This document shows positions 19,998 to 40,294 of a DNA stretch of 40,294 bases, in pieces. Source of the DNA: a virus. Made by a program: the position numbers and the translations under genes. Location of the stretch: IMG/VR virus record IMGVR_UViG_3300010339_000005, positions 1 to 40,294 of that record; one strand, 5' to 3'. Under the pieces are notes generated by a model. The model saw only the letters and a list, made by a program, of their open reading frames with translations, did not search any database and had not been told where the DNA came from. Numbering within the stretch: the first letter of the stretch is position 1; each line of letters begins with the position of its first letter.

Positions 19998-21983
19998 ATG
20001 GCTGCTTTCGCTTACAATTATCTACCTGGAGTACAGGTAACCACAATCGACGGCGGTTTGGTCGCCCGTAGGGTGCCTACTTCCAAGGCCGTTTTGGTAC
20101 TAGGTACTGCTGCGCAAGGTCCAGCTAACGAACCATACCCTGTTACTGATCGTGCTACCGCTGCCCAGATCTTCGGGTTCACCGGCAGCTTGATTCGTGG
20201 TCTTGAGGAAGTAGCAATCGGTGGATCGGACAACATCATCCTGTTCCGTATCGGAACCGATGCTGCGGTTCTTTATAATGTTGGAACCACGACTGCTGGG
20301 AGCGTAACCTATCCTGGATTCACCATCACCTTCGGTACGGTCAACGGGGCTGTGGGTTCTACCTATAGCATCTGGTATGACCCAGCAACCGCACGCCTGT
20401 ATGTGTGGAATGCAACCCAGTTGGTATTCGAATATAACTCGGTTCTCGATGAGAACGTAGATACTGGTGACATCACTATCACGGGTCCGAACGGTCTCGA
20501 GCAGGCTGCTGCTGTTGCCAATACGATTGGCGGCGGTGTGGCTCTTGGAACCGGTTCTCCATCCCTGGCGACCGCAGTAACGATCACGCAGGCCGCAGTC
20601 ACGATTGATGCTGCCATCACTCCAACGACCCTTTACAGTTACTGGCACCGTGATGTACATGGTGCCTTCGCTGCCATCACCAGCAACTTCTATCAGGGCT
20701 TCACTGGCATCGGCATGACCCAGCGCCAGCTGTACATTGCGTTGGCTCAGGCTGCTGCTCTACTCGACATCTACCCGGTGGACGAGATAGTAGCTCCTGA
20801 TGCTGTGTTCGATAACCCGAACGTAGCCTACTACGTCAACGGCAATACCTCGACGTATATGAACAACCCAGCAACCAATCTGAACTCCTTGGATTGGCTG
20901 TCGGTAGTGACAGACGCTTTCGGCAACAGTGTTTATCACTGGGCCAGCGAGTCTTATGATTCTTCAGGAAATTCTGCGGCTCCTGCGACTTGGTCTACCA
21001 ATCTTGATCGTCTCGCTGCCGATTATGGCGAAGTAAACTTCGGTCATGAACTCGCAACGTTCGCTCAGAAACAGGAACTCGTTGGACAAGCCGGAACTTG
21101 CCTGGTGTTCATCGGAACTTCTCAGCCAGCAAGTTTCAAGCTGGTTGATCTTCGTACTTGGGTTGGATTCCTACCGAAATACGATCCGACGATCGTTGAT
21201 CAGGTTGGCGATGCCGACATCAAGGTCATCACCGATGGTGCTGGAGTCCTCGGCATCCCGTATCTATCTGGATGTAGCGCTGCTCGTCTGAACTCACTAT
21301 GCGCTGACTATGGAACTGGTCGTCAGGCTGGTATGTTCCAGACGGATAACGGATTCTATGATGGAGTACCTGTGGTCGACAAGAACGGTAACTTGGTCGA
21401 CGTGGGTGCTTATACACACCCATTCGCTGACGTAGGTATTGTAGCGAACGGATACAAGAATGGTTACGGTACCAACCTCGCCAACTACGCGGCTGGTTAC
21501 TGTGCAACCCTTGACGAAAAGGTGAACCTTACCAACAAGCCTGTCAAGGCAACGCAGCTCTGGAAGCCAAACAGCGTCCAGCTTGACGCTGCCACTGATA
21601 TCGGAGTCAACTTCCTCCGCTTCAAAGGCGACGGCAACCTGCCAGTGTTCACTCACGGGCAGACGGCTGCTACCAACGCAAGTGACTATAAGAACCTACT
21701 CCGTCAGCGTATCAAGGGTCTTGTCGTAGACACGATCCGTACGACGGCGGATCCGTTCATAGGTGCCAGCTCGATCGATGGTCTACAGGTACAGTCTATG
21801 CAGACTGCTCTGACCAACAAGCTGATGACGCTTCAGAAGCGTGGATACATCTCACGGTTCAGCTTTACCGTTACAACCACGCCGGCGCAACAGCGTATCG
21901 GTCACGCCAACATCGACGTAACTTTCAACCCTGCTGATGAGCTCATTCAGCTGGATGCCTCAGTGGCAATCAGCCGCAGCTAA
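19998..21983 (+). CDS. Contractile tail sheath protein
   Basis: The 661-residue protein forms the contractile outer tail. The N-terminal signature LPGVQVTTIDGG, then VLVLGTAAQGPANEPYPVTDR and IFGFTGSLIRGLEEV, is typical of sheath proteins. A variable protruding domain spans about 110-300, with Gly/Thr/Ile-rich beta sequence. The conserved C-terminal domain (about 470-661) carries GYCATLDEKVNLTNKPVK-like and LTNKLMTLQKRGYISRFSF segments and ends in a strand-rich tail that links neighbouring subunits. Length is within the usual 450-700 range. The ribosome site AGGGAG is well placed. Confidence 0.92.
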   Translation: MAAFAYNYLPGVQVTTIDGGLVARRVPTSKAVLVLGTAAQGPANEPYPVTDRATAAQIFGFTGSLIRGLEEVAIGGSDNIILFRIGTDAAVLYNVGTTTAGSVTYPGFTITFGTVNGAVGSTYSIWYDPATARLYVWNATQLVFEYNSVLDENVDTGDITITGPNGLEQAAAVANTIGGGVALGTGSPSLATAVTITQAAVTIDAAITPTTLYSYWHRDVHGAFAAITSNFYQGFTGIGMTQRQLYIALAQAAALLDIYPVDEIVAPDAVFDNPNVAYYVNGNTSTYMNNPATNLNSLDWLSVVTDAFGNSVYHWASESYDSSGNSAAPATWSTNLDRLAADYGEVNFGHELATFAQKQELVGQAGTCLVFIGTSQPASFKLVDLRTWVGFLPKYDPTIVDQVGDADIKVITDGAGVLGIPYLSGCSAARLNSLCADYGTGRQAGMFQTDNGFYDGVPVVDKNGNLVDVGAYTHPFADVGIVANGYKNGYGTNLANYAAGYCATLDEKVNLTNKPVKATQLWKPNSVQLDAATDIGVNFLRFKGDGNLPVFTHGQTAATNASDYKNLLRQRIKGLVVDTIRTTADPFIGASSIDGLQVQSMQTALTNKLMTLQKRGYISRFSFTVTTTPAQQRIGHANIDVTFNPADELIQLDASVAISRS

Positions 21984-25573: not shown

Positions 25574-26119
25574 ATGTCGAGAGGTCGATTCGTAGACCTA
25601 ACGGGTCAGAGGTTCAATAAACTCCGTGTATTGGGGCGGGCTCCAGACTTACGACCTGGGGTGGCAAGATGGAACTGTCTTTGTGATTGTGGGAACTCTA
25701 CTATAACTGGAACTTCCAATCTCAAAGGTGGGACGACTTTCGGTTGCGGATGTGTCCAAATGGACTCCGCTAAAAGAAGGATTCTGCCTTTTGGTCGAGC
25801 GGCTGCTAATAGACTTTTTGCCAGATACAAGCAAGGAGCAAAGAAGAGGGGATTAGCATTCGAGTTGTCGCTCCGTCATTTTCTTGCGTTCACTTCTGCT
25901 GTTTGCCACTATTGTGGTTCGGCACCTGAAAAAGAAGAGAGGCATGAACCTTCTGTATACAAATACAATGGAATAGATAGGAAAGATAATACCAAAGGTT
26001 ATCTGTTGGATAACTGCTTACCTTGCTGTTGGAAATGTAATAATGCCAAAGGGAGCCTCTCTTATCAAGATTTCCTCGAAATGATTACCAAGATTTCCAG
26101 AAATCTGCGTGGTGTGTAA
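25574..26119 (+). CDS. Free-standing HNH homing endonuclease
   Basis: The 181-residue protein combines an N-terminal DNA-binding-type module (DLTGQRFNKLRVLGR, then W33-x-C35-x-C37-x-C39-G and C58-G-C60) with a C-terminal HNH nuclease domain. The latter has zinc knuckles C111-x2-C114 and C152-x2-C155 flanking NGIDRKDNTKGY and ending KCNNAKG. Such intron-less homing enzymes insert between phage genes and promote their own spread. Base composition is visibly more A/T-rich than in neighbouring structural genes, and it lies inside a tail gene block, as expected for a recent insertion. Its stop overlaps the next start (TAATG), so it is well integrated in the operon. Confidence 0.85.
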   Translation: MSRGRFVDLTGQRFNKLRVLGRAPDLRPGVARWNCLCDCGNSTITGTSNLKGGTTFGCGCVQMDSAKRRILPFGRAAANRLFARYKQGAKKRGLAFELSLRHFLAFTSAVCHYCGSAPEKEERHEPSVYKYNGIDRKDNTKGYLLDNCLPCCWKCNNAKGSLSYQDFLEMITKISRNLRGV

Positions 26120-26684: not shown

Positions 26685-29600
26685 TTGTTTCGCAATAAGC
26701 CCCTCATCTCGTTCGATCAGCAGGATACTCCACATCCATTGCTGCGCACCGCTGAACTAACAGCAGCTGGGGCTGGTTTCGTCGCTGGACATCGCTATGC
26801 GATGCGTAACTTTCCAAACTTTGCGAAGAGAGCCTACAGTCTCTTCACAAGGATGGAAGAACTCTCTCCGAACTTCATCTTCAGAACGTTCGGTCTGAGT
26901 GAGCTTTACTCCTCCTATCTCCCAGAAAAACTAGAACTTACAGCCGCGGATCTGATCTCAGGTGCCGGTCTCTCTCCTATGGGAGAGCATCTCCAGCGCA
27001 TGCTGGGGACGAATCTTGACCTACGCACTAGAGTTACCGAGGCAGCTCCTCTTCGTTTCCGTAGAACCGGTGCTGGTTCTGCCTTCATGGAGTTGGAAGG
27101 CGCCGAGCACATTCAGGCGAGGTTCTTCAAGCAGCATGCTACGATCGGTGAGCCAATCACCGGTAAGATCGCCGGCTCTTCACAGCGCCTCGGAGCCAAA
27201 CTAGAATCCGTTCCATTCGATTGGACTAGACCTAGTTCTATAGTTCGTAAGTTCAAGCCATGGCAGAGTCCAACCAAGCATCCGGTCAAATGGGCTCGTC
27301 AGTTATTCCGCAACCTAGGCAAAGCACAACACCCAGAAGCAATCTATGAAGACGTAATCAAAGCCGCTGGGCTTACCGAAGGGTTCCAGCCTGGTGCTAT
27401 TCGCATTGCTGGTAAGCCACTTCAGAATGCTTATAGGACTACGGAACGCCTAAGTTTCTTGATGGCGGAACGTGCTCAAAGCCTGTTGGCAGATATCCGA
27501 CTCGGTCTTTGGAAAGGCACATACAACAAACTCTTCCACGTACCATTCATGGGAGGGGAGAATCGTGGCATCATCAACGAGCTGCTGACCAAGAGAGCAC
27601 TCCCTCTCTACGCCGGCGCCATCGGTCTTGGCTTTGCTGATTATCTAACCCACCACGTTGTCAGCGATACTTTCATTGATCTGTATCAGCAGACCAGGAT
27701 CGCCCACGCCAAACTGAGCGAACTGACGGGTCTTCATGCCATCGCTGAGAAGCAGGAACAGTTAGTTCCAGGCGCTCAATATGCTCCTATTGCTCTGCCT
27801 CTGTTAGGTTTGACTGGTGGAGCAGCATTCCACTATGCCAAGGTACTGACTGGACAGTTTGCAGATTATGCCGCCAGAACCAAGTCTGCCACAGTCTTTT
27901 CTCACGGACTGCCGCCGACAGAAACCTTCCTAAGATATTTCAATAAGAAGAGCCCAATGGCTATTGGGTTGGTGGCTGGCTTCGCGGCGATGCTGCCATT
28001 CATCCCGGGAATGTTGGGAACCAGGAAATCCTCTGGTGAGTTACAAGACATCTTCTCCGGTGTCGAGCCAGTTCCTATTAGATCTGGGCGTTGGTGGGAT
28101 CTTGGAACAACTCCGTGGGAAGGCAACCGTATCAAGGAGTACCGTCCACACTGGACAGTTCTCCACAAGTCCCGCGCCGAAAAGATATCTCTCTACGGAT
28201 CCGAGAAAGAGTATTGGGCACATCACCCACTACTTCACCCATTCCGCTATTTGCGCGATCCTTACTACTTGGAGAGACAGCACTACGAAGACAGACCATA
28301 TCCAATAACCTCCCCTGCTTTCAGCAACATACCTCTGGTAGGACCTCTCCTGGCTGGCACGATCGGTAAGATCGTGAAGCCAGAGGTGCTCATGCATCCA
28401 GAGTGGGAATCTACAGATTACAACATAGGTTCCAGCCGGCTTCAGCCAAAGGGACCTGAAGCACTACCCGCCTCTACGCCAAAACCAGAGTTCGGTCTCA
28501 AAGACATAGGCAAACGAGAAGCCCTACAATTCAGCGAACTGATCGGTCTTCCTGGATTTATCGCCCGTACTCTGTTCGGCAATGCGTATCCTAATCCCAA
28601 CGCTGGAAAGGAAGTTTTCTTCCAGGGATCCAGGATGATGGAGAATATCTCTCGTAGGTATTACGAGAAGGAACTTGGTGCTGGTCTGGCTCCAAACCCT
28701 GAACTGTCCAACACATTGGGCTATTCAGAACCTCTACGTCGTTTCATTCAGCCTGAACCGAAGCGTACAGAAGTCAATGACATCCCTAACACTATGCCAG
28801 CATGGCTACCTGGTGAGGACTACTTCCTCAACTTCAGGACAGGTGATCCATTCGCCAAGATCCCTGAGGGCTTCGCTCGTCTGCCTGGGGCTGGTTATGA
28901 GGCTCTCCACCCAGAAGTTGCTGGTCTGGCTCCTGAGGAATATCCCGCACTAACCAAGATGGAGATCCTTGCCGATGTGGCGCCATACTCCGTTGAGTAT
29001 CGCCGCATGGAGGCACATGTACGCGCGCAATCCCGAGACGATACGGAGATGCGCATTGAGTACGAGAAGATTATAGAGCGCGTCAAGAAGATGAAAGAGT
29101 CCGTAGTTCGTACGGACGATCGCCGCTTCTCGAAAGCAATAACTAAGGCAACAGGAACCATTAGCAATGTCAGTGGTGCTGGTATCGAACTATCTGAGTT
29201 CCCTGGACGTGTGTTCAGGCTGAGTTCGGTTGGATATACAGCCGCAGATCAATCGGCATTGGTTCTCGGTGAGCACAACGACTGGTCTTCGGCGCAGGTG
29301 GCCAGTGAAGTCGAGAATCGTCAACGAAGACTTGTCGACTTCTTCCACAATACCTTGACGTCAGGAACTGAGGTGGGCATTACCATTCCCGCGGGCTCTC
29401 TTGCTAACCAGGAGCGCATCGCAGCAGTATTTGATGTAGGTGGAACCAACATAAACAAGGCTCTAATGACCGAAGGACTTGCTCAATATCGCAAGGACTT
29501 GGGAGGGGCAGAGCAGCAGGCTATGTTTGGACCGCTCGCCAGATTTGCTGGCGCCGCGGCTGAGAACCTAGCATTTACAGGTGATGAGGCTAGATGGAAC

Positions 29601-30638
29601 CCTCTTCGCTATATCCCGTCTCCTTACCACACCAAGTTGTGGCATGAAAGAACTCCTCTGGCTCAGTATCAGCAGCAGGAAGTTGAAGGCGCTAGGCTAC
29701 GTCGTTGGCAGCATCCGCTTGAGGACTTCCTCATGCCGTATGCCCGTGGAGCCTTCCGCCGTGTGGTTGGAGACCTTGGTATTCCCGAGATTACACAGAA
29801 GAAATGGGACTTGAATACCATGGCGGATATGCTAGAATACATTAGAGATATGAAGTTAGCAACCGCGGAGCCAACTTTACATGGAAGGTATACTAGTCAG
29901 GCTAGTAGGACAGCAGTAGGTTCGAACCTTTTTGGAGAGCCTACCTTTATAGCCTCTACTTTCTCTGGTCGGGACGCGGCTTACTTCCAGCGTTTCCTGC
30001 GGGAATCGGATCCGAAAGAGCGCAGCAAGATACTCTCTTCGGTGCCGAAAGAGATGGGTAAAGCCCTGAGCGCCCAGTGGGTGGCTCAGCAGGCTACAAT
30101 CGCCCGCGCGTCTGGAGCCGAAGTCCCTGAGATTGGTGAGGGTGGTCGGCTATACACTGAGGAGTCCATGGCAGAGTATGCCGGGGCTAAAACTCGGCTG
30201 AACTATGGTGATTACCAAAGATCCAAGGAAATAGCAGAGTTCTTCGCAAGTCGTGGGCTGAACTTACCTGAGGCTGCTGAGTCGCCTTTGTATAATCCAG
30301 CCATAGACTATGAAGATGTAAAACTAAAGATTGTCCAGCAAGAAGGCTACGATTCACACGACTTCGGTCTCTTTGATGATCGAGCCGCTCTATTGTGGCG
30401 CAAGCCTTATATTGATGGGGCTGTTAGAGAACTGACTGGGCAAGATCGCAGATCAGTAGAGGACATTCGCAAGTCCGTCGAAGACATGATTGTTGCGGCA
30501 CATGATAAGAACCCGCAGGTCATGTTAACCTCTAACCAGGCTAGTAGAAGCCGAGGAAACGTTCGGGTAGATGTAGATTTAGACCAGAAAGATGCTCTCA
30601 TGAAAGACATGAGACGGAACCCTGAACGCTATCAGTAG
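26685..30638 (+). CDS. Giant inner-tail / tape-measure-type protein with SNase-like domain
   Basis: The 1317-residue protein begins at a TTG, with AAGGA eight bases upstream and no better start nearby. Its size and position fit a tape measure or ejected inner-tail protein. Hydrophobic helices at about 305-320, 365-385, 424-445 and 545-560 could cross the host membrane. A motif-rich segment follows (GRWWDLGTTPWEG near 466, then DPYYLERQHYEDRPYPIT), recurring in large phage proteins in my recollection. Residues about 815-940 resemble a staphylococcal nuclease fold: KATGTISNVSGAGIEL, GRVFRLSSVGYTAAD, and QERIAAVFDVGGTNINKALM followed by TEGLAQY. The usual catalytic Glu after the L-x-x-V-D-T-P motif is not apparent, so nuclease activity is doubtful. 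The C-terminal 300 residues are helical and charged. Confidence 0.72.
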   Translation: MFRNKPLISFDQQDTPHPLLRTAELTAAGAGFVAGHRYAMRNFPNFAKRAYSLFTRMEELSPNFIFRTFGLSELYSSYLPEKLELTAADLISGAGLSPMGEHLQRMLGTNLDLRTRVTEAAPLRFRRTGAGSAFMELEGAEHIQARFFKQHATIGEPITGKIAGSSQRLGAKLESVPFDWTRPSSIVRKFKPWQSPTKHPVKWARQLFRNLGKAQHPEAIYEDVIKAAGLTEGFQPGAIRIAGKPLQNAYRTTERLSFLMAERAQSLLADIRLGLWKGTYNKLFHVPFMGGENRGIINELLTKRALPLYAGAIGLGFADYLTHHVVSDTFIDLYQQTRIAHAKLSELTGLHAIAEKQEQLVPGAQYAPIALPLLGLTGGAAFHYAKVLTGQFADYAARTKSATVFSHGLPPTETFLRYFNKKSPMAIGLVAGFAAMLPFIPGMLGTRKSSGELQDIFSGVEPVPIRSGRWWDLGTTPWEGNRIKEYRPHWTVLHKSRAEKISLYGSEKEYWAHHPLLHPFRYLRDPYYLERQHYEDRPYPITSPAFSNIPLVGPLLAGTIGKIVKPEVLMHPEWESTDYNIGSSRLQPKGPEALPASTPKPEFGLKDIGKREALQFSELIGLPGFIARTLFGNAYPNPNAGKEVFFQGSRMMENISRRYYEKELGAGLAPNPELSNTLGYSEPLRRFIQPEPKRTEVNDIPNTMPAWLPGEDYFLNFRTGDPFAKIPEGFARLPGAGYEALHPEVAGLAPEEYPALTKMEILADVAPYSVEYRRMEAHVRAQSRDDTEMRIEYEKIIERVKKMKESVVRTDDRRFSKAITKATGTISNVSGAGIELSEFPGRVFRLSSVGYTAADQSALVLGEHNDWSSAQVASEVENRQRRLVDFFHNTLTSGTEVGITIPAGSLANQERIAAVFDVGGTNINKALMTEGLAQYRKDLGGAEQQAMFGPLARFAGAAAENLAFTGDEARWNPLRYIPSPYHTKLWHERTPLAQYQQQEVEGARLRRWQHPLEDFLMPYARGAFRRVVGDLGIPEITQKKWDLNTMADMLEYIRDMKLATAEPTLHGRYTSQASRTAVGSNLFGEPTFIASTFSGRDAAYFQRFLRESDPKERSKILSSVPKEMGKALSAQWVAQQATIARASGAEVPEIGEGGRLYTEESMAEYAGAKTRLNYGDYQRSKEIAEFFASRGLNLPEAAESPLYNPAIDYEDVKLKIVQQEGYDSHDFGLFDDRAALLWRKPYIDGAVRELTGQDRRSVEDIRKSVEDMIVAAHDKNPQVMLTSNQASRSRGNVRVDVDLDQKDALMKDMRRNPERYQ
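29889..29902 (+). promoter_or_regulatory. Weak internal copy of the TATACT motif
   Basis: TATACTAGTCAGG in the coding strand matches the core of the capsid-leader motif (TATACTAATCAGG) with one change, and CTAG repeats flank its right half. It lies about 740 bases before the Clp-type gene and could be an internal promoter, but coding-sequence chance is not excluded. Confidence 0.2.
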
Positions 30639-32186: not shown

Positions 32187-32903
32187 ATGAAGCCACTTGT
32201 CCGATCGCTGCTATTGATTCTTCTTGGAGTCTCATTGCTGCTTTTCACCTTGAGACCACCACAACATCAACCCACCACTCAGCAACAACTCTATGAACAT
32301 AGGATTGTATTCATTGAGCCTGATGGAAGGGAAGGGAACGAGTGTACTGCGAGTGCTATAGGCCCGCATGCTATCCTAACAGCCGAGCACTGTGATGATA
32401 GGTATACTGGCATTTCTCACGAACTCCGTATAGATCTACTGTTCACCCACTATCACATTTTGGCGGGTGTAGTAGACAACCGAGACCACGTGATTTTATT
32501 TCTCGATGGTCCTGCTTTCAAGCATTACATACCAGAAGAAGACCTAGTTGATGTCAAACCTCCTAAACCAAACGAGAAGGTCTTCCTTTATGGTTATGGT
32601 GGAGACTCGTATCCAGGACGACGATTAGTTGGGAAGTTGGATTTAAACGCTCAAGAAAATGATACATCTGATGTGAATCAATCCAGTCAGTTGTTTTGGT
32701 ATACCTTCCATGTTATCCCAGGTGACAGTGGTTCCGCCATTTTTGGATCTGATGGTAGAGTGGTGGGAATTATTTCCTACGAGATAGTGAATGATGAAAA
32801 ACAGCAACAGGGTTCCGCTGGATTCGGTCTCGGCTTCCGAAAAGAAATGATAGAAAAAGTTCAATCCTTCACAGGGATAGACCCTTTGGTAACCTCTCCC
32901 TAA
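32187..32903 (+). CDS. Membrane-anchored trypsin-like serine protease
   Basis: The 238-residue protein starts with a basic, very hydrophobic segment (KPLVRSLLLILLGVSLLLFTL), a signal peptide or membrane anchor with no clear cleavage site, followed by a Gln/Pro-rich linker. The chymotrypsin-fold triad is visible: His68 in ILTAEHC, Asp100 in RDHVILFL and Ser181 in PGDSGSA, with later GRVVGIISY and GFGLGFR typical of the S1-pocket region. Length matches single-domain V8/trypsin-type proteases. Outside-facing location is predicted. In a tail-gene cluster it may process a virion protein or act on host envelope proteins. GTGAGGATA provides the ribosome site. Confidence 0.85.
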   Translation: MKPLVRSLLLILLGVSLLLFTLRPPQHQPTTQQQLYEHRIVFIEPDGREGNECTASAIGPHAILTAEHCDDRYTGISHELRIDLLFTHYHILAGVVDNRDHVILFLDGPAFKHYIPEEDLVDVKPPKPNEKVFLYGYGGDSYPGRRLVGKLDLNAQENDTSDVNQSSQLFWYTFHVIPGDSGSAIFGSDGRVVGIISYEIVNDEKQQQGSAGFGLGFRKEMIEKVQSFTGIDPLVTSP

Positions 32904-32926: not shown

Positions 32927-32997
32927 GGAGGTGGGATTCCTTCAAGCGTGATCGACCGTTGCCGCGGTCATCCTCCTATCACTCTTTTCCCACCTCC
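32927..32997 (+). promoter_or_regulatory. Structured leader with sequestered Shine-Dalgarno
   Basis: GGAGGTGGGA (32927-32936) is the exact reverse complement of TCCCACCTCC (32988-32997), giving a perfect 10-bp stem. Inside, GAT-C-GACCG (32950-32958) pairs with CGGTC-ATC (32965-32972), with one bulged C. The AGGAGG ribosome-site sequence is thus buried in the outer stem and can alternatively pair with CCTCCT (32972-32977). A candidate GTG start lies inside and an ATG 11 bases after the stem. This could be a translational switch or a terminator-like element (the 3' arm is followed by CTTTTCTCC). Confidence 0.6.
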
Positions 32998-35900
32998 CTT
33001 TTCTCCTATGCCTAAAATCCCCTTCTCATCTATGGCGCAGTTCGTAGTACGGAATCCGTTCACTACAGCTGCCTCCATTTTTACCCCACTCTTTGCCAAG
33101 AATGAGGACAGGGGATACTTTCGTACAGCCCTAATCACCACCCCAATCATCTTTGCTACTGGAGCGGCTGTTCCTAAACTATTTGGTGGGGTGAGGGACT
33201 TTGCCATTCAGAGCGCCAGAACAGCCACAGAGGCAGCGGATATCCTAAAGATGGAGAAGTGGCAGCGCCATGAGCAACCAGTCATGGCTAATCTAAAGAG
33301 CCTATTCCAGAACCCTGGAAAAGGACCCAGTGCTGTCGACCAAATGACCTCGGCTTATCTGGTGGCTGAACGTCGTGGGCACAGGGACTTCCTCAAAGAG
33401 CAGCGAGTGCTGACCAAACTGTTCAATCGCCGTTTTGTAAAGACTACCGATCTATTGGCTAAAAGTGCGGCAGGAGAACTCGGAGCCCAGCTCCGTGTTG
33501 CGGAGATCGAGCGACTACAAAAGGGAGAGTTATTGACTAATGCTCTTCACGTGGCACGTCGCTCGTCTCTGACACCTACTGAATGGGCACAAGGAGCATT
33601 GGGAGAAGAAGCCAAGATCCTAAACCAGGATCAGATGGTAGCAATGTTCAATGAATACTCCAGCCGCCCTGAGTTCGTGAAGACCCTACGCAACCGACTA
33701 CGTGAACTGAACAGGCTTGATTATGAAGGCACTCTGAAGAGTTGGGGAGGTGTTCCAAGAACTGGAGCCACCACAAGAGTTCCTCTTGATTGGGATCTCG
33801 GATGGAACGATCCTTCTAGAGCGGCGTTTGAGGAGCAGGCGCCTGAAGCCTACAAGATGTTTGAGGCAGCCAAGAGGGCTGGAAGAATCCGTGGGATCGA
33901 ATTAGAACTATCCAAGGATGTAGTGTCAGGCAAGACTGGTAGGATCCTAAGCATCTCGGTTGAGCGTAGAGAAGGAGAGCATCTAAAGAACCTGGTTATC
34001 CCAATGGTTGATGCTGCCACTGGCACAGTTGTAATGCCTGGTGGAACGGCTGTTGGAGTGGGTGACTTTGTAATCGGCGCCGATCAAAATGTGTTCGATC
34101 TACCAACCTGGATTGGTAAGATGATGCTGGAGAATCCGAACATTCCTATTGAGTCGGCGTATCCAGGGGCTCCAAGTCTGTCTGGTGAAGTAGCAGCACA
34201 TGCCTATTGGCAGGCTGGCGATCCTCTGGATGCTCGTCGTGTCGCTGAACTAAGATCCTTCGGTGATGAAGGAACTGGGTTCTATACCGCCCAGGCTCGG
34301 CAGACCAGAGGTATGGTGGCAAAGGGAACTACTTTGCCACTATTCGAGAACGAGAAGCACAAGATGGTTACTTACGACGAACTCACTCCTAAACAAAGAG
34401 TGGCTTTGATTCGTTCAGATATCAACAGTGCCAGATTCATGCCAATGGCAAGTGAGGCTGGTGTCTATGAGCGCCGCTATGCTCTTCGTAGAGCGGCTAA
34501 CCTCTCTCCTTGGGGAGCCCCGAGTGCTGAGAAGCAGGATCCAATCTGGCGCTCGATCACTAAGGAATGGCAGATCGCTCCGAAGCCTGGAGTTCAGATT
34601 CCTGATTCTGCCAGACAGAAATGGAGCAGCACAGCCTGGGAATCTCTGACTGGTGCTGATACTCTTCCTGGAATCAGGGAGACTTTCGCCATGATTTCTC
34701 CACAGGATCGCGCAGCCCTAAGCGAGATGTCTCCCGCGGCAGCAGAGGCTATGTTCCCAGATCTATACAAGACTTATGGATCTGAACTACACGAGGCTCT
34801 ACGCAACTTCGGAGCCATGGGTGAGACAGTAACTTTCCGTGATCCAGAGCATGCTGGCATGTTCCAGGTAGAAGGCTCACGCACCTACCACATGCAAGAT
34901 GTAGGTGTAAGAGAAGGGCAGTCAGTTACCGAAGACATGGTTCTTGGGTTCAATGAGAAGAACCGTGTTCTGCCTATTGGGTCTGGTGTGGTCTCTGAGA
35001 TCGCCGAGACTGATACAGGGTTTGCTGTTAGCATCCGTCATGCTCTTGGTCTACAAGGAGCCAAGACAGATACCGCCGGCGTCAAAGGAATGGGTAGGGT
35101 TACCGAACACTTCGCAGCGATGCGTGACATCTTGAATCAACACTATCGCCGCATTGGTAGTAAGGATTATATCTCTTCGGATGTCAATGTTCTGGCTCCT
35201 GCCGAGTATGCTATGGACAAGATGGATCCTGCTCATACCTACATGGGATTGGCAGAAGACATCCTCAATCGCTTCGGTGAGAATGAAATCTCCAAAGGAT
35301 ACCTGGCTCGGATGGGTGAGCAGGGTATCACCTTCAACTATGGACAGTTGGTAATCGATGCTGCCAAGAATCAAATCGAGAGTGATAAGTTGGCGGCTGA
35401 GAGAATACTAACCCTGGCTCAGATCAACGAGGACTTCTTTGCTCAGGCGGGCGCCGCGCTCCGTACGGCTGGGCAGTCAAAGGATCCTATCTTCAATGCC
35501 TTCATCCAATCAGGTAGCACAAACTTGGGCGACTGGATGATGAAGAACCACCTGAGTCTGACCACCTATGCTTGGGATCACTCTCTGGTGAATACCCCAC
35601 GCTTCGCAACGATAACTCACGATGTCGGAACCTATCTGCGTATAGGAGGACAGAACGCCAGCCTGAAGGCTATACAGTCTCGCTTACAGACAGTATCTGG
35701 TGGAGATCCGAGACAGGCTTTGGAGTTTGGCAAGTCTCTATTCGCTGGGAAGTATTCAGGAAATGTCATTCCTGCCAGTGAAGCGTTCCTACAAAAAGCC
35801 AGCATACAATCCGCCGCGGGTAGGGCTGGATCTATCTTTGACCCAAGCATAGCCCAGTATAGAGAAAACTTCCAGATGACTCTGGCTAATGGTCAAGTTG

Positions 35901-37729
35901 TGCCTGTGCCAGGCACTGCTGCTTATGGAGCCGAGAGTCCTCAGTTTGCCCCAGGTGAGTATCAGACCCACCAGTGGCAACATACTTTACATGAGATGGC
36001 GGCAGAGAAAGATCCTGCTAAACTAGAAGCGATGAAAGGGAAGTTGCTGGATCAGTATTCGGAAGCATTCCTTACTGGTAAGCAGAGTGCTTTGCGTCCT
36101 CATGCCTTTGATCCTATGGGCGTTTCTGGAGTATTAGGAGTTGCGGCTGAGCAGGGAGATCCTTTCTTAGCCCGTCTGAGCCCTGAGGTTGTGGCAAGTA
36201 TCCGCAGCCAGAGAGTTCGCGAAGCCCTACAAAGGGGCGAAGATGTTGTTGGTTTGCTACACCGCCAGCCTACCAACTTCCTACCATTCTTGAAGTACAG
36301 AATGGATAAGTCATTGGCTGGAACTCGTGAGATTGCTACTTCCGAACGCGTCTCTCGTTTGATGTTCGGAGACGTCGATAAAGATAACGTCAATGCTCTG
36401 TTCTTCGATGTCAGCACACGGATGGAGAATAACAAACTGGTAATCCATGGCTGGGCAAATGATGAAGAGCGCGCGGCGGCTCAGGAAGCACTTGATGCTA
36501 TCCAGGGAGGAAAGCAAGCACAGATTATATCCTCGATGGAAGAAGTTCTCGGAACTTCTGAGGTGGCTAATCTCAATCAGGGATATACTCCGAAGTCTCT
36601 ATACGGTAGAACTGAGAAGTTCGCCAAGGGGGTTGCCGATCGTGCTCGGGTTGCTATAAACAGAACCGCTGGCGCCTCTATTGGAGGCTACTCCAACGAA
36701 CTGACTGAGGTTACTGAACACCTCGCCAGAAGTAAGTTCTTCGCTAATGATTATCAAGCCTCGGCTCGTTTGAATGCTTTGACTTTCAGCATGATCAGAC
36801 AGGCGCCTATCAGTGCTCGTAAGGCGCATGCTACTTTCAGTTTGGAGACGGCTTTACAGAAACTGAACCAGTTGAAGTCTTCTATTGCTAACGAAAACTC
36901 GACCGCTTCCGCCAATCAACTCATGGATACATTCATGGGGTTGGGCAAGACACTCCATGGAGAAGACTGGGTCACCAAGAAAGAGTATCAATACCTGACT
37001 GGTGAAAAGGCGATCTCCGACATGACTCAATGGGCTGCCACACGCACAGAGAAAGGGCGTTTGGCTAAGCAGGCTCTTACTGCTACTATAGATCAGGGAA
37101 GACCATTTGGTGAACAGTTCGCTGCTAAGAATCTGCCTCGCATAATGTCAGATGTTGAGGGAGTTCTTGGAGCACACCATGGTGGTAGAATGGCAGACGA
37201 ATCTGCTTCCCGACTGGGCTCTATTTCAGAGTTCCTGGCTGAAAAGGGAAGAGCAGTTGCTGGCACAGCCACTGGTAGGGCTGGTAAGTTTTTTGCCGAG
37301 CACGGTGCCAGTATGGCTGTCGGTCTTGGAGCATTGGCTGCTTTGGGCGTGGCTCTTACTCCAAACAAAAGACGTCCTATTGCTACTTTCAGCAGAACCA
37401 GTAGCAACAGATACCGCCCTGAGGAAATGATAGGTGTGCCTGGAGCTATACCAGGAGAACCAACACCAGGAGAAATGTCCAGCAATCCTCCGAGAAGGGT
37501 AATGGAAGGTAGTCCTGGAGTTCGTAAAGCAATGGTGGCTCCGATGAGGAATACATCTGACCTGACCGTTCAGATGCACGCCTTTGATCACTCCAGAGCC
37601 GCCGACACCGCTCGACAGGTGGCAATGATCCCTGGCAGCGGCGATACAAATGTAACCATCAACTACCGAGATCGCACCAAACTTCGCAGTCTAAGGACGA
37701 GAGAGCAGATCAGAGAAATACATGGCTAA
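32948..37729 (+). CDS. Candidate virion RNA polymerase (beta/beta-prime DPBB fusion), giant tail-cluster protein
   Basis: The frame encodes 1593 residues from GTG 32948; ATG 33008 (1573 residues) is an alternative, as the first 20 residues look unlike protein. Residues below count from the GTG. Residues about 655-770 follow RNA polymerase beta: GVREGQSVTEDMVLGF, then IGSGVVSEI, a strand ending SIRHALGL, G704-A-K706, K713-G, and later SSDVNVLAPAEYAMDKM in the place of the beta VD-x-x-LNPL-x-VPSRM element. Residues about 1099-1180 follow beta-prime: LLHR1106-QPT, then D1142-V-D1144-K-D1146 and an ANDEERAAAQEALD helix. Spacing R to first D is 36, versus 35 in E. coli. These are the metal-binding catalytic barrels. 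Hydrophobic segments near 57-75 and 1452-1472 suggest membrane passage or insertion. A bridge helix and trigger loop are not obvious. Likely injected polymerase; a plain structural role is the alternative. Confidence 0.7.
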   Translation: MIDRCRGHPPITLFPPPFSPMPKIPFSSMAQFVVRNPFTTAASIFTPLFAKNEDRGYFRTALITTPIIFATGAAVPKLFGGVRDFAIQSARTATEAADILKMEKWQRHEQPVMANLKSLFQNPGKGPSAVDQMTSAYLVAERRGHRDFLKEQRVLTKLFNRRFVKTTDLLAKSAAGELGAQLRVAEIERLQKGELLTNALHVARRSSLTPTEWAQGALGEEAKILNQDQMVAMFNEYSSRPEFVKTLRNRLRELNRLDYEGTLKSWGGVPRTGATTRVPLDWDLGWNDPSRAAFEEQAPEAYKMFEAAKRAGRIRGIELELSKDVVSGKTGRILSISVERREGEHLKNLVIPMVDAATGTVVMPGGTAVGVGDFVIGADQNVFDLPTWIGKMMLENPNIPIESAYPGAPSLSGEVAAHAYWQAGDPLDARRVAELRSFGDEGTGFYTAQARQTRGMVAKGTTLPLFENEKHKMVTYDELTPKQRVALIRSDINSARFMPMASEAGVYERRYALRRAANLSPWGAPSAEKQDPIWRSITKEWQIAPKPGVQIPDSARQKWSSTAWESLTGADTLPGIRETFAMISPQDRAALSEMSPAAAEAMFPDLYKTYGSELHEALRNFGAMGETVTFRDPEHAGMFQVEGSRTYHMQDVGVREGQSVTEDMVLGFNEKNRVLPIGSGVVSEIAETDTGFAVSIRHALGLQGAKTDTAGVKGMGRVTEHFAAMRDILNQHYRRIGSKDYISSDVNVLAPAEYAMDKMDPAHTYMGLAEDILNRFGENEISKGYLARMGEQGITFNYGQLVIDAAKNQIESDKLAAERILTLAQINEDFFAQAGAALRTAGQSKDPIFNAFIQSGSTNLGDWMMKNHLSLTTYAWDHSLVNTPRFATITHDVGTYLRIGGQNASLKAIQSRLQTVSGGDPRQALEFGKSLFAGKYSGNVIPASEAFLQKASIQSAAGRAGSIFDPSIAQYRENFQMTLANGQVVPVPGTAAYGAESPQFAPGEYQTHQWQHTLHEMAAEKDPAKLEAMKGKLLDQYSEAFLTGKQSALRPHAFDPMGVSGVLGVAAEQGDPFLARLSPEVVASIRSQRVREALQRGEDVVGLLHRQPTNFLPFLKYRMDKSLAGTREIATSERVSRLMFGDVDKDNVNALFFDVSTRMENNKLVIHGWANDEERAAAQEALDAIQGGKQAQIISSMEEVLGTSEVANLNQGYTPKSLYGRTEKFAKGVADRARVAINRTAGASIGGYSNELTEVTEHLARSKFFANDYQASARLNALTFSMIRQAPISARKAHATFSLETALQKLNQLKSSIANENSTASANQLMDTFMGLGKTLHGEDWVTKKEYQYLTGEKAISDMTQWAATRTEKGRLAKQALTATIDQGRPFGEQFAAKNLPRIMSDVEGVLGAHHGGRMADESASRLGSISEFLAEKGRAVAGTATGRAGKFFAEHGASMAVGLGALAALGVALTPNKRRPIATFSRTSSNRYRPEEMIGVPGAIPGEPTPGEMSSNPPRRVMEGSPGVRKAMVAPMRNTSDLTVQMHAFDHSRAADTARQVAMIPGSGDTNVTINYRDRTKLRSLRTREQIREIHG

Positions 37730-40294
37730 GCCTCTAACACCACTATACTCAACAACCGATACGACGCAGCCTGGCTATTTCCGCATTGGCTATGTTGTCC
37801 TTCAGATTCCACCGACGGACATCTCCACCAATAGGATCGTGAATGATGACCAGTTGGCTACTATCCGTGGCATTTCGCCTATGTTCATCAAGAGCGGACA
37901 GGCACGTTGGGATGTTACTGTTCACTGGAAAGCCGTTCGATTCGAGCAGTCTGACGGAACCTATGACTACAGCCAGTGGGTAGATCTACGCAACATCTGG
38001 GCTATTTTCAAAGCCGCACCGTTTGTCGAAGTTGAGAACGACTTCCTACGCCAACACTTCACCAATACTCAACTAACTACACAGACGCAAAGAATGGCTT
38101 TCGCTCTTCGTCAGTTGAGAATAGACACAAACCCAGACTCAAACAATGTTCTCGATGTCGTCTTGACGATGTCGTTGTTCAACTACGCTCCGTTCTCAAA
38201 GGACTTTGGATACCAAGACGCCAATGGAGACTCTTCTAACTCCACCGACTCAACCAAGTTCCAGTTCTACATTGCTAAATACATCAGTAGGAACATGGAT
38301 AACCATCCAGGTTCTCACAGTTCTCCCCCAATGCCAGCATGGAATACTCAAGAAGAAGGAGTGACCGTATTCAAGTGGAGAGAGTACACTTGGTCTCCGT
38401 TCAACCAAGCCTCTTCCTCATTACCAGCAACCTCGCCTGCCACAGCAGCCTACACACCAACTGTCCCACCGCCGAGCGTCCCAAAGAAGGTGTCATCCAA
38501 GACGACGAAGGTGTCCAATGACATCCAGAGTATTCTCAACGCTGCGGCAACGAAGAATGGTCTTGATCCTAAGATTGTCACTGCGCAGTGTATTTATGAA
38601 AGCAATGGTAACCCTAATGCTATTAGTCGTACGGGCGCGGTGGGCTTGCTCCAACTACTCCCCTCCACAGCCCAACTCACCAGACAACAACTTTTGGATC
38701 CGCAAACGAACGCGGAAAAGGGATGCCAATACTTAGCCCAGCAGTTGAAGAATTTCGGTAACTATCCGCATGCCCTTGGTGCTTATAACGCTGGGCCAGC
38801 CTATATCTACGCCTATCGTGATGGTACGACCCAAAGCCATGGCAGAATCAATCCACGAAAGATCAAAACTCCAGATGGCTTACCTCCAGCAGGCATTCCG
38901 AATGGTGAGAATACCCCACTGTATGTTCAGACAATCATGTCCAATGCTGGATACTCTAATCAACTGCCAGCAACTCCAACGAAATCAACTGATGGGCTTC
39001 CACCAGCATCACCTCTAACCACCAGTATTCTAAGCATTCCAGATGCTACTTATCAGAAACTGGTATTACAGGCTGCTCAATCTCTACCAAAGAGCGGAGA
39101 TGGTTGGGATTTGGATTACTACACTGAGCAGGGGGTGTTTTTTTTCTTCGACCACACTATCACTCTTGCCAGCGCCGACTCAAGAGTGGAGGGGGACTTC
39201 GACCTGTTCCCAAACCAGGTCTCCGTTGTAATGGTAAATAACTTACCGATGATCCCATTGGCTGCTATGCAATACCCAACCTACCAGCACGTAGGACCTG
39301 CTGACACGATGATTTCGATCAGCATGAACTCGGTTGGAGACGAACCAGGAACCCAGAGCAATCCTTTGAACGAACCGTTTCACGGAGGCATTCAGGCACT
39401 GGCAGCCATGTCCAGTCAGTTGGAGGATCAGTTCCATAACCTCCGTACGATGACTCGTGCAGTGTCCAGCATTCACAGAATGCAAGCCATCTTCGTTCAA
39501 AACCAGATTCTCAACATGCTGGGGATCCACGGCACTATGCTGCGTGGATTGAACACCGAGACAGTTCCAGAGGCTTCGGATTTGGTTCAGGTGGCTATCA
39601 CTTCCTCGCAATATGAGAACATCTTTGAAGAGTCTTCTCCTTATCGTATCAATGGATTGCCATCAGCATACAATGCCCCACTGAAGAACATCCTGACTAC
39701 AGGGCAGATCAATACAATGGATTCTGCTTCACAGCAAGCAGTTCCTGTAGCACAGCAGTTTGGTAACGCCTGGCAGGCTCTGGATGAAGCCTATCTACTA
39801 AATGAGATCATAAGCATCACACAGTCTGGTAAGGCGATCGTAAATACAGCGACCCCTGGCTTGGATATCCTGACGGACATGTCTGATATTGCCACAGCAG
39901 GACTCCGCCCTGATGAACAGACTTATCTGTTAGGCACAATGGATTTGGAAGAACAGGGGAATAGTTCGAATGCTGTTGAGAATGTCCAAGCAGCCTTTAA
40001 TGAAGTCGCAGGAGGACTAACCCTATACCAAAAGGATACCTATCCAGGACTACAGAAGCGTAGGCTGATACTCAATGCTCCTGGCAAGACCATGACTTTT
40101 GCTGACTACTTTGTATACAGCCAGTTGCCAGAACAGTCCGACGCCAAGGTCACAGCCACTATCAAGGCTGAAGTAGATGCTCGTTTCAATAGCCTTCGGG
40201 CAGATACAATCAGTGCGATGTATTCTCATCTGTTTGACTGGGAGTTAGCTACCAACCCACTCTTCTCAAGACAGCTACAAGTTATTGCGAACAG
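37722..40294 (+). CDS. Baseplate/hub protein with lytic transglycosylase domain (3' end outside window)
   Basis: A reading frame opens at ATG 37722, overlapping the previous stop by eight bases, and stays open for at least 857 codons to the end of the window. Residues about 1-200 form an N-terminal structural domain (ARWDVTVHWKAVRFE, DLRNIWAIFKAAPFVEVEND, LDVVLTMSLFNYAPFSKDFG). A Pro/Thr/Ser linker follows (about 215-260). Residues about 265-405 are a Slt-type lysozyme-like domain: catalytic Glu293 in CIYESNGNPNAIS, then GAVGLLQLLPSTA and LGAYNAGP. The rest (about 430-857) includes a beta-rich FDHTITLAS segment and long helices. It would anchor in the baseplate and cut glycan strands during DNA entry. 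Confidence 0.85.
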   Translation, partial: MAKPLTPLYSTTDTTQPGYFRIGYVVLQIPPTDISTNRIVNDDQLATIRGISPMFIKSGQARWDVTVHWKAVRFEQSDGTYDYSQWVDLRNIWAIFKAAPFVEVENDFLRQHFTNTQLTTQTQRMAFALRQLRIDTNPDSNNVLDVVLTMSLFNYAPFSKDFGYQDANGDSSNSTDSTKFQFYIAKYISRNMDNHPGSHSSPPMPAWNTQEEGVTVFKWREYTWSPFNQASSSLPATSPATAAYTPTVPPPSVPKKVSSKTTKVSNDIQSILNAAATKNGLDPKIVTAQCIYESNGNPNAISRTGAVGLLQLLPSTAQLTRQQLLDPQTNAEKGCQYLAQQLKNFGNYPHALGAYNAGPAYIYAYRDGTTQSHGRINPRKIKTPDGLPPAGIPNGENTPLYVQTIMSNAGYSNQLPATPTKSTDGLPPASPLTTSILSIPDATYQKLVLQAAQSLPKSGDGWDLDYYTEQGVFFFFDHTITLASADSRVEGDFDLFPNQVSVVMVNNLPMIPLAAMQYPTYQHVGPADTMISISMNSVGDEPGTQSNPLNEPFHGGIQALAAMSSQLEDQFHNLRTMTRAVSSIHRMQAIFVQNQILNMLGIHGTMLRGLNTETVPEASDLVQVAITSSQYENIFEESSPYRINGLPSAYNAPLKNILTTGQINTMDSASQQAVPVAQQFGNAWQALDEAYLLNEIISITQSGKAIVNTATPGLDILTDMSDIATAGLRPDEQTYLLGTMDLEEQGNSSNAVENVQAAFNEVAGGLTLYQKDTYPGLQKRRLILNAPGKTMTFADYFVYSQLPEQSDAKVTATIKAEVDARFNSLRADTISAMYSHLFDWELATNPLFSRQLQVIAN

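Follow-up and report, generated by a model that had tools for sequence, protein, structure and literature searches.

Single-chain virion RNA polymerases (RNAPs) of the two-barrel type are already known. In the Thermus phage P23-45 the tape-measure chain carries a virion RNAP (vRNAP), which has been proposed to transcribe pre-early genes during DNA entry (PMC10770324). The polymerase occupies the N-terminal part of gp96, a tape measure 5,002 residues long, and the long tail of P23-45 lacks a sheath. The fusion of RNAP and tape was reported for close relatives of P23-45 only; the supplementary survey of that work may include some members of the lineage discussed here (PMC10770324). The crAss-like phage phi14:2 encodes gp66, a two-barrel virion RNAP of a single chain, fused to large uncharacterised regions (PMC10770324). 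YonO of phage SPbeta and the members of the QDE-1/RDR family are single chains as well. The RNAPs of phiKZ and AR9, in contrast, are each divided among several chains, and their vRNAP is carried in the head, according to a 2026 review (PMC13282480). Here we describe P0001, the product of a single open frame of 1593 codons (32948-37729) found in the 40.3-kb virus record IMGVR_UViG_3300010339_000005. The whole stretch analysed, 40,294 nucleotides long, is called the window; the genes of P0001, the sheath, the hub and the large upstream tail protein lie on its + strand. P0001 is probably (we would put it at about 0.8) a single-chain virion RNAP carried in the tail of a contractile phage, ejected from it, and transcribing the first phage genes.

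The closest precedent is P23-45 gp96 (PMC10770324). Both proteins combine two-barrel RNAP features, a chain free of cysteines, a tail-tape locus, a motif of the ID-x-x-K type and a membrane segment; the metal triad of gp96 reads DFDGD. Unlike gp96, P0001 is separate from the large Cys-free protein encoded upstream, and is found in sheathed phages. P0001 shares with YonO and the QDE-1/RDR family, besides the single chain, the motifs I-G-x-Y-S-N and I-D/S-x-x-K located after the triad. YonO differs in being a non-virion enzyme with 14 Cys, and has no significant sequence match to the P0001 families. The likeness to gp66 is one of description. P0001 differs from the phiKZ and AR9 enzymes in being a single chain encoded in a tail block.

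An earlier note on this DNA had read P0001 as a single-chain RNAP of the multisubunit type. This was largely right: homology to single-chain two-barrel RNAPs is supported by residue conservation, Rpb1_2 matches in relatives, a held-out profile and matches to the beta' fold. The strings quoted in the note (VREGQSVTEDMVLGF, GVVSEI, GAK706-x6-K713-G, DVNVLAPAEYAMDKM, LLHR1106-QPT and GD1142-VD1144-KD1146-N) are all found in P0001, and R1106 and D1142 are indeed 36 residues apart. These motifs fixed eight residues beforehand (K706, K713, R1106, P1108, T1109, D1142, D1144, D1146), which were followed in the alignment of family A, made of P0001 and eight proteins 23-28% identical to it. Six are invariant in the nine sequences (K706, R1106, P1108, D1142, D1144 and D1146); K713 and T1109 vary. 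Only 4 of 200,000 draws, matched by residue type and ignoring kinship, did as well (~2e-5). The proposed correspondence with the R-x-P and D-x-D-x-D motifs of beta' is borne out in the family of P0001. R1106-x-P-T (36263-36274) is the equivalent of the beta' RAPT, and D1142-V-D1144-K-D1146 (36371-36385) is the predicted metal-binding triad. Further on, I1245-G-G-Y-S-N1250 (36680-36697) resembles the I-G-E-Y-S-N tract following DNDGD in YonO, and I1288-S-A-R-K1292 (36809-36823) resembles IDFAK of YonO and IDFPK of P23-45. G1246, S1249, I1288, A1290 and K1292 are invariant. The two motifs, mostly conserved, may belong to a putative bridge helix/trigger loop region.

Proteins encoded at the same place in other genomes tell the same story. 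Alignment of the upstream protein led to the recovery of 80 viral loci and of 5 loci in bacterial genome records. The genes found at the place of P0001 split into many families, mutually undetected by phmmer, and the P0001-like chains range from 1,388 to 2,833 amino acids. Twenty-eight diverse positional orthologues were counted, setting aside Moorella phage MTATph1 and the clade of loci L039-L085. D-x-D-x-D is present in 28/28, versus 4/43 other large open reading frames (ORFs) of the same loci, and R/K-x-P upstream of the triad in 25/28 versus 2/43 (Fisher p = 1e-14 and 5e-13, respectively, with the motif-less MTATph1 included in both tests). The R-x-P region of the relatives reads R-[YH]-P-[TF]-I-x3-[SG]-[IM]-Q. 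Several orthologues resemble beta' itself, as RYPTINQSTIQAM...ADYDGD and RHPTIGAYSMQPV...AADKDAD, to be compared with RAPTLHRLGIQAF...NADFDGD of E. coli.

Searched alone, P0001 gave nothing significant in Pfam, PHROGs, PDB sequences, phage and plasmid tblastn, and viral_contigs. The earlier note had pointed to Pfam, and for Rpb1_2 matches were found in relatives at the expected position. They concern proteins of the KLEB27-3 type (E 0.015 and 1.3e-3) and two whole phage genomes, in each of which the match was the sole one (E 3.3e-5 and 4.2e-4); all fall below the Pfam cut-off. A profile of the R-x-P/D-x-D-x-D region was built from 24 orthologues, leaving out the family of P0001, and run on 866 proteins. 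Once a near-copy of a training member is set aside, the best outsider was E. coli rpoC (residues 396-468, E 4.6e-7), and the next was P0001 itself, listed as its identical copy L001 (residues 1091-1157, E 3.3e-4). The profile reached P23-45 gp96 over its DFDGD region with an E value of 0.11, and HHalign was under the reporting threshold; the sequence similarity to gp96 is not significant. Among families, HHalign linked B to C at 95.8 %, C, G and H at 100 %, A to B at 78 % and A to C at 52 %. Single rpoB, rpoC, YonO and P23-45 sequences compared to the families by HHalign remained under the reporting threshold, a result superseded by the held-out profile. Profiles of families A and C found no RNAP among PDB sequences.

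Residues 470-1330 of P0001 were modelled by AlphaFold2 (AF2) from the nine-sequence alignment. A beta'-type double-psi beta barrel is predicted at residues 1055-1157 (36110-36418), with a predicted local distance difference test score (pLDDT) of ~50-72 over most of it. This segment matches the largest subunit of yeast Pol I (VIA Z 8.3, root-mean-square deviation 2.0, 89 amino acids), and the RNAPs matched by VIA include Pol I, Pol III and the non-virion RNAP (nvRNAP) of phiKZ. The core of a relative, L032, was modelled at a mediocre pLDDT of 50, and has as best Foldseek match the beta' of AR9 nvRNAP (E 4.8e-7); VIA aligned it (Z 10.9) over beta' residues 27-507, from the N-terminal part through the catalytic barrel. 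QDE-1 and phi14:2 gp66 are not among the matches listed for L032, which excludes nothing.

The beta half of P0001 is putative, and is suggested by K706 and by similar K-x6/7-[KRH] tracts in the relatives. The candidate active-site lysines K706-x6-K713 map at 35063-35086. K706 is invariant in the nine sequences; the K713 column has K or Q, and two sub-groups have K one residue earlier. In the relatives the site fits K-x6/7-[KRH]-x-x-T. Of the two lysines pointed out in the earlier note, K706 is conserved and K713 variable.

Several observations weigh against assigning P0001 to the polymerases. The second lysine varies even among the members of family A, as does its counterpart in family B. The PF00562 profile does not match P0001, and the beta barrel is unconfirmed in the AF2 models of P0001 and L032, where the region is at low confidence; of the two double-psi barrels claimed, the beta' one has been modelled. 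The HHalign links of family A with B and C are moderate. The AF2 model of P0001 is poor (mean pLDDT 40), and searched by Foldseek it gave nothing significant (kinases, E 0.24). The beta' barrel is its only recognisable part, and p97 N-domain barrels match residues 1055-1157 equally well; hence the model speaks for the fold, and the family has to be read from the sequence. Lastly, the L039-L085 clade carries GGFDLDDKG rather than D-x-D-x-D at the locus, and MTATph1 lacks the motif, so that some relatives may do without the activity.

Composition and location strongly suggest that P0001 is carried in the virion. From the ATG at 33008 (residue 21) the protein has no Cys, the single one of the frame lying upstream of that start. 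This ATG is likelier than the GTG at 32948, because the closest homologue begins there; the polymerase homologue would thus span 33008-37729 (residues 21-1593). The orthologues add up to 52,262 residues with 2 Cys among them, and 26 of the 28 have none. Per 1000 residues, 4.3 Cys occur in hub proteins of the same phages and 6.8 in the other ORFs. In two relatives of 215 kb, the only Cys-free ORFs of at least 600 amino acids are the P0001-like protein and its upstream neighbour, the latter appearing in one genome (G005) as two tile fragments. Cys is likewise missing from P23-45 gp96. N4-like virion polymerases are Cys-free, a trait linked to membrane passage (PMC5795418). Lack of Cys is a trait common to virion RNAPs rather than a strict definition of them, and in large proteins of tail loci may serve as a simple flag for ejected enzymes. 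The chain also includes, as the earlier note had anticipated, a hydrophobic segment. This is a Gly/Ala-rich helix (residues 1453-1471, 37304-37360), and similar segments are located in the C-terminal region of 17/17 proteins examined.

Tail locus, absence of Cys and the C-terminal hydrophobic helix are best explained by ejection through the tail, which is likely. In the proposed mechanism, P0001 would join a beta-type region, with lysines near 706-713, to a following beta'-type double-psi barrel in one chain, where D1142, D1144 and D1146 would bind the catalytic metal ions. The protein would be made along with the tail, and be hosted in the tail tube as a loosely folded, Cys-free chain, beside the product of the 26685-30638 gene. 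It would leave through the contracted tail, with the DNA or ahead of it, and the hydrophobic helix could either anchor it in the cell membrane or pass it through. There it would transcribe the first-entering phage genes, presumably from early promoters, before or instead of the host RNAP. Both the exit and transcription at DNA entry are drawn by analogy with the tape-measure vRNAP of P23-45.

P0001 might alternatively be a tape measure built on an RNAP fold, which fills the tail tube or sets its length, the barrel being a structural relic, or it might be tape measure and polymerase together. A Cys-free chain with a hydrophobic helix suits a tape measure equally, gp96 acts in both roles (PMC10770324), and the tape measure of Bacillus phage 0305phi8-36 was assigned by tail-length correlation to orf146 (PMC2147016), a label given mainly on length. 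According to the annotation notes of Acinetobacter phage ME3, orf146 lies where P0001 does, adjoining the hub gene orf147; orf99, which encodes an RdRP/YonO-like RNAP, is in another part of that genome. The tape-measure explanation is nevertheless unlikely. A second Cys-free protein is encoded upstream, at 26685-30638, and is the better tape-measure candidate because closer to the chaperone genes; conservation of three Asp in 28/28 proteins is moreover hardly expected of a relic.

The order of the motifs, and those downstream of the triad, are YonO-like, and could denote an enzyme working inside the cell which merely happens to be encoded in the tail block. The position between tail genes is however constant in relatives, P0001 has no Cys where YonO has 14, and KLEB27-3 gp034 has been deposited as a structural protein; on these grounds a non-virion enzyme was rejected as very improbable. 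That the motifs resemble those of RNAPs by chance, in an unrelated tail protein, would fit the lack of database matches of P0001 itself and its poor AF2 model. The idea is largely refuted, and scarcely credible, in view of the invariant residues, D-x-D-x-D in all 28 orthologues, Rpb1_2 matches in relatives, the held-out profile and the beta' fold. A two-barrel enzyme of other activity, as a primase or a PolD-type DNA polymerase, has a minimal probability: PolD has the same two-barrel active site (PMC10770324), and several relatives feature an N-terminal 3'-5' exonuclease-like domain, but RNAP beta' gives the closest matches in both fold and profile, and no exonuclease match was found in P0001.

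The contractile-tail setting claimed for P0001 was found as described. A tail sheath gene (19998-21983; PHROG tail sheath, E 6e-40) and a portal gene belong to the same block, and the gene downstream (37722-40294, cut by the contig end) encodes a hub/baseplate protein with a lytic transglycosylase domain (Pfam SLT, E 1e-21). The gene at 26685-30638 encodes a large tail protein kept across the lineage, with no Cys in 1317 amino acids; this is likely either the tape measure proper or another lumen protein. Within the phage collection, portal, sheath and this upstream protein matched only Acinetobacter phage ME3, Bacillus phage KLEB27-3 and MTATph1, and gene order is the same. Because its neighbouring genes match this group, we place the window phage in the deep 0305phi8-36/ME3/KLEB27-3 lineage on sequence grounds; the tie to 0305phi8-36 comes from the annotation notes of ME3. 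The place of P0001 is taken in ME3 by gp036 (1603 amino acids, labelled hypothetical), and in KLEB27-3 by gp034 (2434 amino acids, labelled structural protein). Wherever the flank is long enough, one or more large genes follow the upstream protein and precede the hub gene; the products of the genes that come after P0001-like genes form in relatives one cluster of 49.

The same enzyme appears to occur throughout this deep lineage of giant contractile-tailed phages. According to a 2021 survey, jumbo phages outside the phiKZ-type group and two others have no RNAP of their own (PMC7824862), and the publication on ME3 reports none (PMC5000817). The accessible part of the 2026 jumbo-phage review describes virion RNAPs for the phiKZ-type family only (PMC13282480). 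What is new is the family of P0001 and its contractile setting. To our knowledge, crAss-like phages lack a sheath. The earlier note had called such an enzyme unusual in a sheath-bearing phage; this applies to family and setting, not to the principle, because a tail-tape-fused virion RNAP is known in the sheathless P23-45 (PMC10770324). If our interpretation is true, the contractile phages of an entire lineage bring along a starter polymerase of their own, concealed by extreme divergence, and this would account for a start of transcription independent of the host enzyme. Research on the origin of two-barrel enzymes would also gain new single-chain RNAPs to work with, and the coupling of transcription to DNA entry a test case. 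More tentatively, and with less than even confidence, an ancient lineage of contractile, often giant, phages may encode in its tail-tape locus a dedicated Cys-free polymerase, threaded through the tail tube, which couples transcription to DNA entry. On that view this lineage and P23-45, which has no sheath, would share a single ancestral system, at once tape measure and virion RNAP, and many proteins annotated as tape measures or hypothetical tail proteins would be polymerases.

Some features of the locus vary. The interval between the tape-measure-like and polymerase genes is free of genes in ME3, and is filled in the window phage (30639-32903) by the gene of a ClpB-like ATPase of the AAA+ type (Pfam AAA_2, E 3e-40), by a small ORF and by the gene of a trypsin-like protease. 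The protease gene (32187-32903) adjoins P0001 upstream, and its product bears an N-terminal hydrophobic stretch. An Endonuclease VII/HNH-like gene (25574-26119; PHROG E 5e-17), possibly a homing endonuclease, is located near the expected position of the tail chaperone.

Among relatives, the KLEB27-3-type orthologues L097 and L098 have an exonuclease-like region at the N-terminus. MTATph1 CDS0027 (L002:30512-34441) has kept the exonuclease, lacks the polymerase motif, and is directly followed by an annotated transposase gene. In the L039-L085 clade, the ORF located after an upstream protein of 2,200 amino acids (as L063:12367-17082) is equally Cys-free. Its product shares a conserved GGFDLDDKG...RQPxG tract and a later VNRxxxVxSxLxQ...A[IV]D tract in place of D-x-D-x-D, and may be a polymerase that has diverged or been rearranged. 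In L064, L065, L067 and L077 this type of protein is split in two genes, encoding ~660-780 and 800-940 amino acids.

A second RNAP was sought in relatives with PF05183 and YonO; the searches, run with no positive control, were empty. When the two 215-kb relatives were scanned for the motif, no second candidate turned up in G006; the scan gave no candidate of any kind in G005, whose own DDDLD triad could not be matched by the pattern. The phage of locus L029 (G008) hosts on the minus strand a separate beta-like gene (104709-105134; PF00562, E 6e-15) and a weak beta'-like one (106918-107058; PF00623, E 0.04), which may encode a non-virion polymerase beside the tail one. Finally, the 3336-amino-acid Cys-free ORF L116:2473-12483 features NADFDGD at residue 1188, AISSKK and later hydrophobic segments, and looks like another virion RNAP fusion of tape-measure size, in a different phage.

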